Source: Erysipelotrichaceae bacterium (GTDB taxonomy: Bacteria > Bacillota_I > Bacilli_A > Erysipelotrichales > Erysipelotrichaceae). Taken from it: a DNA stretch of 64,000 nucleotides. This document shows, one piece after another, positions 49,282 through 51,881 of this stretch (the first letter of the stretch is position 1; each line of letters opens with the position of its first letter). Where the stretch lies: NCBI GenBank assembly GCA_017419165.1, contig JAFOLW010000073.1, positions 1-64,000 of the forward strand. The letters are read 5' to 3'. The notes under the pieces are model-generated. The model had not been told where the DNA came from. It worked only from the letters and a program-made list of their open reading frames with translations, and searched no databases. The translations under genes and the position numbers were made by a program.

Positions 49282-50763
49282 TCAGTCTCTGCGGTAAAGA
49301 TCCCGGGTGTAGACTTTTTCTTTCACGTCATCCAGACAGCTGTCGTAGCGGTTGGCAATGATCGCCTTGGACTTCTTTTTGAATCTGTTCAGATTGTTGA
49401 CGACTTTGGAACCGAAGAAGGTGTCTCCGTCTTTGAGTGTCGGCTCATAGATGATGACTTTCGCACCTTTTGCCTTGATGCGTTTCATGACGCCCTGTAT
49501 CGAGGATTGGCGGAAATTGTCGGAATTGGCTTTCATCGTCAGGCGGTAGACACCGATGATGACTTCCTTTTCCTTATCGGCATCGTACTGTGCGGAATTG
49601 CCATAGGTCCCGGCCAGATCCAGGACCCGGTCGGCAATGAAGTCCTTGCGGGTGCGGTTGGATTCCACGATGGCTTCGATGAGGTTTTCCGGCACATCTT
49701 CGAAATTGGCCAGAAGCTGTTTGGTGTCTTTCGGCAGGCAATAGCCGCCATAACCGAAGGACGGGTTGTTGTAGTGGGTACCGATGCGCGGATCCAGACA
49801 GACGCCGTCGATGATCGAACGGGTGTCGAGCCCCTTGGTCTCGGCATAGGTGTCCAGTTCGTTGAAATACGAGACGCGAAGTGCCAGATAGGTATTGGCG
49901 AACAGTTTCACCGCTTCGGCTTCCGTGATGCCCATGATGCGGGTCTCGATGTCGCTCTTGAGCGCTCCCTGCGATAAGAGCGTTATGAATTCTTCCGCCG
50001 CTTTCCTGTTTTCTTCGTTTTCAAGATCGGCACCGACGATGATGCGGGAAGGATAGAGGTTGTCATACAGGGCTTTGGATTCTCTAAGGAATTCCGGGGA
50101 GAACAAGATCCTGTCGCAGTTTTTGCGTTTCCTGAGTTTTCGGGTGTAGCCGACCGGAACGGTGGACTTGATGATGATGAAAGCGTCAGGATTGCAGTCC
50201 AGGATCAGATCGACGACCGTCTCTACGGCGGAAGTATCGAAGTGGTTCTTCTGTGGATCGTAATTGGTCGGTGCGGCAACGATCACGTAATCGGCATCCT
50301 TGTAGGCCGACCGCGCATCGAGCGTTGCGGTCAGATGCAGATCTTTGTTTTTCAGGTAGTCTTCAAGATAATCGTCCTGGATCGGCGATCTTCTTTGATT
50401 GATCAGATCGACTTTTTCTTTGACGATGTCGACGGCTTTGACTTGATTGTGCTGGGCGAGCAGTACGGCGACCGAAAGGCCGACATAGCCTGTGCCGGCG
50501 ACGGCGATCTTCTTGCATAGCACCGTTTCTTCCGCGGGGACTTCTTCCTGCGGTTTTTCCAGGATCTCATCGAGGCCGATCTTCAAGGTGTCCATCAGAT
50601 CTTCCAGCTGCCCGATCGAAGGCATGTAAGTCCCGTTTTCGATCTTGGAGATCATGGCGCGGTTGATATGCGTGATCTCAGAAAGATCGCTCTGGGACAG
50701 CGATAGCTTTTCTCTTTTCGTTCTTATGGTTTTGGACAGTAGGTCCTGTTTGATTCTTCGCAT
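49282..50763 (-). CDS. Xre-type HTH fused to UDP-glucose 6-dehydrogenase
   Basis: A 493-residue fusion. Residues about 8-65 are a Cro/C1-type helix-turn-helix ([20 protein letters not shown], then [13 protein letters not shown]). After a short acidic linker (PQEEVPAEE), residues 84-493 form a nucleotide-sugar dehydrogenase with Rossmann GTGYVG (90-95), [23 protein letters not shown], and catalytic Cys342 in [10 protein letters not shown]. The enzyme part would oxidise UDP-glucose (or a close UDP-sugar) to the uronate with two NAD+. ATG 50763 has AAGGAGG just upstream, so the fusion is genuine and in frame. Together with two palindromes upstream, it looks like an enzyme that regulates its own gene and the divergent epimerase. 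Confidence 0.92.
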
Positions 50764-50782
50764 GAGGTGTTCCTCCTTCATT

Positions 50783-50801
50783 ATGTTATTAAAAATAACA
50801 T
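50783..50801. promoter_or_regulatory. Palindromic operator 1
   Basis: ATGTTA-N7-TAACAT, a perfect 6+6 dyad, 20 bases upstream of the dehydrogenase ATG and next to its ribosome site. Same half-sites and spacing as operator 2. Probably bound by the HTH domain of the fusion protein. Confidence 0.75.
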
Positions 50802-50825
50802 TTTTATTCAATATGAAAAATTATA

Positions 50826-50844
50826 ATGTTATCAATTGTAACAT
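50826..50844. promoter_or_regulatory. Palindromic operator 2
   Basis: Second ATGTTA-N7-TAACAT. Its centre is 43 bases from the first, close to four helical turns, so both face the same side of DNA. It covers the -35 box of the epimerase promoter. Confidence 0.75.
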
Positions 50845-50864
50845 CAGCTTTTCTGTTGTATGAT
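50836..50864 (+). promoter_or_regulatory. Epimerase promoter giving a leaderless mRNA
   Basis: TTGTAA (50836-50841), 17-base spacer, TATGAT (50859-50864). Transcription would start at about 50871, exactly at the ATG of the epimerase, which has no Shine-Dalgarno. Confidence 0.7.
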
Positions 50865-50870
50865 AAAGCT

Positions 50871-51881
50871 ATGCTGAATCAGAAAACGATACTCATTACC
50901 GGAAGCTGCGGCTTCATCGGTTCCAACTTATGTAAGAGACTGTTGAACGATGTGAAGGATCTGCGCATCATCGGTGTCGACAACATGAACGACTATTACG
51001 AAGTCTCATTGAAGGAATACCGCCTGAAACAGATCGAAGCTCTCGGAAGGGACTTCATCTTCATCAAGGGCGACATTTCCGACCGGGACTTTGTCGAAGG
51101 TCTGTTTGAGGAACACAAGATCGACCTCGTCGTCAATCTGGCGGCACAGGCCGGCGTGCGTTATTCGATCGATCATCCGGATACCTATATCGGATCCAAC
51201 ATCATCGGTTTCTACAATATCCTGGAGACTTTGCGGAAGCACCCGGTCGAACATCTGGTCTATGCTTCCAGTTCTTCGGTCTACGGCGGCAATACGAAAG
51301 TCCCGTTCTCGACCGATGACAAGGTCGATCACCCGGTGTCTTTGTATGCGGCCACCAAGAAGACCAATGAGCTGATGGCTTATACCTATACCCATCTTTA
51401 CGGCATCAAGTCGACGGGTCTGCGCTTCTTCACGGTCTACGGTCCGGCGGGACGTCCGGATATGGCTTACTTCTCGTTCACGCGGAAACTGCTGAACGGC
51501 GAGAAGATCAGGATCTTCAACTATGGCAAGTGCGAGCGTGACTTCACTTATGTCGACGATATCGTTGAGGGCATCGTCCGGATCCTGGATAAGGGTCCCA
51601 AGGACGATTACAATCTTTACAATATCGGCAACCATCATCCGGAGAATCTCATGGATTTCGTCTATACGCTGGGCGCTTGTCTGAAAGAGAACGGTCTGCT
51701 GGATAAAGATTTCGATCTGGATGCCCATATGGAGCTCACGGAGATGCAGCCCGGGGATGTGCCGGTGACGTATGCCGATACGGCGCCGCTGAGGGAGGAT
51801 TACGGTTTTCAGCCTTCCACTTCCTTAAAACAGGGGCTGTCAAGATTCGCTGAATGGTACAAGGGATACTACAAAAAATAG
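50871..51881 (+). CDS. NAD-dependent epimerase, UDP-glucuronate 4-epimerase type
   Basis: A 336-residue short-chain dehydrogenase/epimerase. The NAD loop is TGSCGFIGSNL. The catalytic triad region has ASSSSVYGGNTKVPF and SLYAATKKTNE (YxxxK). RFFTVYGPAGRPDMAYFSFT and KCERDFTYVDDIVEG are characteristic of UDP-glucuronate 4-epimerases, which make UDP-galacturonate for surface polymers. The divergent gene makes its likely substrate, UDP-glucuronate. Translation probably starts from a leaderless mRNA. Its stop lies in a terminator stem. Confidence 0.9.
   Translation: MLNQKTILITGSCGFIGSNLCKRLLNDVKDLRIIGVDNMNDYYEVSLKEYRLKQIEALGRDFIFIKGDISDRDFVEGLFEEHKIDLVVNLAAQAGVRYSIDHPDTYIGSNIIGFYNILETLRKHPVEHLVYASSSSVYGGNTKVPFSTDDKVDHPVSLYAATKKTNELMAYTYTHLYGIKSTGLRFFTVYGPAGRPDMAYFSFTRKLLNGEKIRIFNYGKCERDFTYVDDIVEGIVRILDKGPKDDYNLYNIGNHHPENLMDFVYTLGACLKENGLLDKDFDLDAHMELTEMQPGDVPVTYADTAPLREDYGFQPSTSLKQGLSRFAEWYKGYYKK

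Follow-up and report, generated by a model that had tools for sequence, protein, structure and literature searches.

Two identical inverted repeats upstream of a gene for a UDP-glucose 6-dehydrogenase (UGD) fused to a helix-turn-helix (HTH) domain in an Erysipelotrichaceae bacterium are, very likely, the operators of the fused enzyme itself, an explanation that, judging from comparative sequence analysis, accounts best for the observations overall. The window, that is, the entire stretch of 64,000 nucleotides that we analyzed, contains the fusion gene and a divergently transcribed epimerase gene, and the repeats (hereafter, dyads) lie between the two.

The fusion protein and its enzymatic part

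The fusion gene (49282..50763, minus strand) encodes a protein of 493 amino acids in which an XRE-family HTH domain (aa 13-67; Pfam HTH_3, 9.3e-12) is followed by a short linker and an entire UDP-glucose 6-dehydrogenase (aa 84-493; UDPG_MGDP_dh_N, 8.8e-32). The HTH domain maps to positions 50563..50727 of the minus strand; the recognition helix (aa 35-42) and its putative specificity residue, Ala36, were delineated by combining the Pfam match, a structure model and the covariation described below. The AlphaFold model is of moderate overall quality (pLDDT 77.7, pTM 0.56) and does not fix the arrangement of the HTH domains in the dimer; within it, the HTH is well formed (approximately residues 6-67, with pLDDT ~94 for helix 35-42) and the linker has low confidence. 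The enzymatic part is an ordinary member of the UGD family, with highly significant similarity to the enzymes of Klebsiella (3phl, E ~1e-151) and S. pyogenes (1dli, E ~1e-142), from which the fusion differs by its N-terminal HTH. The solved UGD relatives align with the fusion only from about residue 83-86 on, and none of them covers the HTH.

All three UGD domains and the catalytic residues that define a UDP-glucose 6-dehydrogenase are present in the fusion. Because C342, K286, N290 and D346, to which we assign the catalytic Cys, Lys, Asn and Asp roles by reference to the S. pyogenes enzyme, are invariant among 36 aligned fusions, the fusion enzyme is probably active. We found no description of the fusion in the open-access papers that we searched, and it is easily overlooked because the annotated plasmid copies are named merely "nucleotide sugar dehydrogenase". 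Such plasmid-borne fusions were detected in Butyrivibrio (L272), E. faecalis (L273) and E. hirae (L274), with transposase genes near the enterococcal copies. Five genomes (G176, G568, G698, G712 and G868) hold both an HTH-fused and an HTH-less UDP-glucose dehydrogenase, possibly, a regulated and unregulated pair. One further dehydrogenase copy, L153 (G058:C33:9464-10750), contains five in-frame stops and is apparently a pseudogene.

Twin dyads in the divergent intergenic region

The region between the fusion ATG (50763, minus strand) and the epimerase ATG (50871, plus strand) is 107 nt long, with a GC content of 24%. As proposed in the initial annotation of this DNA, it contains two perfect ATGTTA-N7-TAACAT dyads separated by 43 bp from centre to centre: the proximal one, ATGTTATTAAAAATAACAT (50783-50801, no strand), and the distal one, ATGTTATCAATTGTAACAT (50826-50844, no strand), both of which match the pattern exactly, with 0 mismatches. 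In Markov shuffles of the intergenic region (n=20,000), at least one exact copy appeared in 0.01% of the sequences, and two copies appeared in none. No other perfect match exists in the available genome, which comprises 1.79 Mb and is 72.6% complete. When up to 2 mismatches are allowed, this genome contains 33 sites, and the control, the reversed pattern, yields 32; accordingly, the looser matches do not rise above background.

The initial annotation had raised the concern that a genome search for the 19-bp motif might turn up many unrelated copies. The perfect copies found elsewhere are few and not conserved and, across 25 genomes, the majority of the perfect dyads are located at fusion promoters. 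Candidate additional targets were considered and rejected. Perfect sites in a typA-like gene, a flagellar hook-like gene and another long ORF all lie within coding sequence, and the site found where an NlpC/P60-like gene begins (1 mismatch in G000:C77, perfect in G203:C64) is not intact in the other relatives examined.

The dyad tracks the fusion, and the half-site tracks the recognition helix

From genome collections, we drew 91 non-redundant fusions and, for comparison, 90 HTH-less dehydrogenases, and scored the dyad as ATGTTA-N7-TAACAT with no more than 2 mismatches within 130 nt upstream of the gene. The dyad was detected upstream of 51 of the 91 fusions versus only 1 of the 90 HTH-less UGD genes (Fisher p ~1.5e-18), so the conservation among fusion-keeping relatives that had been suggested as a check of the dyads is borne out. 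When both groups were limited to sequences with less than 34% GC, the corresponding numbers were 46/75 and 1/34, with a mean of 3.3% under the Markov null. Among the hosts of dyad-bearing fusions are Erysipelotrichaceae, Lachnospiraceae and Enterococcus. Usually, the proximal site is located 29-41 nt before the fusion ATG, and both arms of the dyad are conserved, including the halves that do not correspond to any promoter element. In the remaining 40 fusions, no TGTTA dyad could be recognised; TGTCA or GAYGCT-type dyads are present in some of these, and no dyad of any kind was identified in the others. An independent check came from the plasmid fusions of Butyrivibrio, E. faecalis and E. hirae, found afterwards: each of the three has, at -32 to -39, a dyad of the TGTTA type, with 3 mismatches in the case of E. 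faecalis. Their helices are of the INRT or INRA type, and the two enterococcal proteins do not differ within the part shown.

The main reason to consider the fusion itself the likely binder is that the half-site covaries with its recognition helix. We sorted the fusions by the residue that follows N/H-R in this helix, which is Ala36 in the window. Fusions with NR-Ala have TGTTA half-sites in a ratio of 37:1, and those with NR-Gly have TGTCA in a ratio of 4:1 (p = 2e-4). The Gly-type sample is small (n=13, with TGTCA at no more than one mismatch in 5 cases), and the tree rows are not independent. In the tree of the dehydrogenase part, the Gly-type fusions with TGTCA dyads occupy at least three separate places (L029/L191, L045 and L103), and L184, an Ala-type fusion nested within a Gly clade, again has a TGTTA-type site. 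The exceptions to the covariation are L040, an NRG fusion with a TGTTA-like site, and one NRA fusion for which the best site is of the TCA type. Some Ser-type fusions have different dyads, for example, GACGCTGACAGCGTC and GATGCTATCAGCATC. A GAYGCT-NNN-AGCRTC dyad or half-dyad was identified in L207, L210 and L205, which have NRS[IV][LI]SR helices; this is perhaps a third operator specificity. The covariation points to the HTH-fused enzyme as the binder of the dyads, the role that the initial annotation had attributed to it.

Overlap with predicted promoters and the probable role of the second site

The fusion gene is preceded by a ribosome-binding site, AAGGAGG, evident from direct reading (50772..50778, minus strand). 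Its proposed -10 element, TAACAT (50783..50788, minus strand), is the downstream half of the proximal dyad, and the proposed -35 element, TTGAAT (50806..50811, minus strand), is separated from it by 17 bp. Given that TTG is found 17 bp from TAACAT in 19 of the 21 genus relatives, and at any other single spacer length at most once, the proximal dyad most likely contains the fusion -10. The earlier description of this dyad as lying beside the dehydrogenase ribosome site is accurate as to adjacency but incomplete, in that the half-site TAACAT doubles as the putative -10.

On the other side, the divergent gene (50871..51881, plus strand) encodes an NAD-dependent epimerase of 336 aa (PF01370, 4.5e-57), the best solved relatives of which are 5u4q and WbgU; it is probably a UDP-glucuronate 4-epimerase. 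The proposed -35 of this gene, TTGTAA (50836..50841, plus strand), sits inside the distal dyad, in agreement with the initial annotation, and the proposed -10, TATGAT (50859..50864, plus strand), follows after 17 bp. By hand count on printed sequences, TTGTAA-17-TATGAT is present in 8 of the 14 relatives with a divergent epimerase, and TTGCGA is present 18 bp from TATGAT in two further epimerase-bearing relatives. The epimerase mRNA is probably leaderless because the ATG is located only about 6 nt past TATGAT, and there is no ribosome site in this segment (50859-50873 of the window). The same layout is kept across most of the genus (L092, L093, L121, L126-L128, L133 and L140). In L130, a pair of genes resembling, by eye, HicA-HicB toxin-antitoxin (633-1318) is divergent to the fusion and replaces the epimerase.

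In 19 members of the genus, the second site lies at a distance of precisely 42 or 43 bp. The pair is kept in genus members that lack the divergent epimerase (L125, L130, L095 and L098), with a weakened distal site in L129. A second site was also found in 14 fusions from outside the genus, at 52-139 bp and in mixed helical phase; most of these fusions have no divergent gene close by. Therefore, strict helical phasing holds within the genus but fails as a general law, and the divergent gene is ruled out as the cause of the paired sites. Because the pairs persist without the epimerase and recur outside the genus, the two operators appear to be part of the control of the fusion itself, with the epimerase as an additional target in the genus. 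The joint control of both divergent genes posited in the initial annotation is probable, given that the dyads overlap both predicted promoters, but it is not the reason why there are two sites.

A model of autoregulation and its alternatives

The model that we favor combines steps with support at the sequence level, namely, the identity of the operators, their association with the fusion, the helix-operator covariation, the promoter overlap and the fixed spacing, with steps that we infer, namely, binding, its negative sign, cooperativity between the sites and release upon ligand binding by the enzymatic domain. Each TGTTA-N7-TAACA dyad would accommodate the pair of HTH domains of one fusion dimer, and the base at the fourth position of TGT(T/C)A would be read by residue 36 of the recognition helix. 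Occupancy of the proximal site would block the -10 of the fusion gene, and occupancy of the distal site would block the epimerase -35, so that both promoters would be repressed, and synthesis of UDP-glucuronate and its epimerisation would be kept in step. The separation of 42-43 bp corresponds to four helical turns and could allow contact between two bound dimers. A ligand of the enzymatic domain, UDP-glucose, NAD(H) or UDP-glucuronate, might release the fusion from the operators. It is only the promoter overlap and the spacing that suggest joint repression and cooperativity.

Sites placed in this way could also serve a switch similar to that of CI: with both dyads occupied by the fusion, the distal one would mainly activate one of the promoters, and the outcome would be something other than joint repression. 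We consider this arrangement unlikely, although it is the strongest of the alternatives: the distal site stays at the same 42-43 bp in genus members without a divergent epimerase, and the two-site layouts of variable spacing in the 14 fusions from outside the genus mostly have no divergent gene nearby, but in most genus members, this dyad and the epimerase -35 overlap, and its position upstream of the fusion -35 fits either role.

The identity of the binder is less in doubt. A separate, unfused XRE regulator might occupy the dyads, the fused HTH having another function or none; XRE proteins are common, and weak HTH matches (30-40% identity) exist in the genomes of the family. Nevertheless, in Erysipelotrichaceae, Lachnospiraceae and Enterococcus alike, the dyad accompanies the fusion, and HTH-less UGD genes do not have it, apart from the single case noted above. 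Furthermore, the half-site shifts follow the helix of the fusion, and few perfect sites occur away from fusion promoters. All this makes such a regulator improbable. Least credible of all is the possibility that no regulator is involved and the dyads are mere promoter-element sequences, such as TAACAT, or RNA or terminator structures. One half-site indeed coincides with a -10 and another one with a -35, but the conservation extends to the arms outside the promoter elements, the distal offset is kept where there is no divergent gene, and the covariation with the helix would be left unexplained. Moreover, the proximal dyad cannot be an RNA hairpin of the fusion mRNA because it lies upstream of the expected transcription start.

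Comparison with known systems

Among known systems, PutA is the nearest functional parallel: this enzyme, too, is fused to a DNA-binding domain, and its operators lie in the region that separates putA from the divergently oriented putP (PMC5879082). In both systems, the DNA-binding domain is at the N-terminus of an oxidoreductase, and the operators, predicted in the case of the fusion, are flanked by the gene for this protein on one side and by a divergent pathway gene on the other. As in a PutA-like enzyme-repressor, or trigger enzyme, an intact enzyme and a DNA-binding domain are united in one chain and, to judge by the sequence, the operators overlap the promoter of the fusion gene and that of the divergent pathway gene. 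However, PutA (proline dehydrogenase / P5C dehydrogenase) contains a ribbon-helix-helix (RHH) domain, whereas the fusion contains an XRE helix-turn-helix, and PutA is a catabolic flavoenzyme, whereas the fusion is a biosynthetic nucleotide-sugar dehydrogenase with two dyads in fixed phase and no known membrane switch. With a UDP-glucose dehydrogenase and HTH_3 in place of proline dehydrogenase and RHH, the fusion system is outside the PutA family proper; it shares the logic of PutA, not its domains.

The fusion also resembles dimeric repressors of the XRE/Cro-CI type, such as lambda CI and CylR2, in the HTH_3 fold and in a dyad operator that covers core promoter elements. The HTH sequences of known structure that are closest to that of the fusion include CylR2 (1utx). 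The combination of HTH_3 with a predicted dyad operator over its own promoter is that of an XRE-family autorepressor, but the dimerisation and effector part of the fusion is a complete UDP-glucose dehydrogenase.

Implications

Uronic-acid precursors feed the capsules and exopolysaccharides of gut bacteria, and control in this pathway is usually ascribed to separate regulators or kinases. If the model is correct, a dehydrogenase with a built-in repressor would provide a direct link from metabolite to promoter. The natural variants of the helix and the operator constitute a ready test set for the evolution of XRE specificity. With about even chances, in our estimate, the fusions form a class of nucleotide-sugar dehydrogenases that regulate themselves, widespread in Bacillota and not described so far. 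In such a class, the catalytic state would set the occupancy of paired operators, no separate regulator would be needed to control the supply of precursors for uronic-acid polysaccharides, and the HTH-operator pair would evolve by recognisable steps of one residue and one base.
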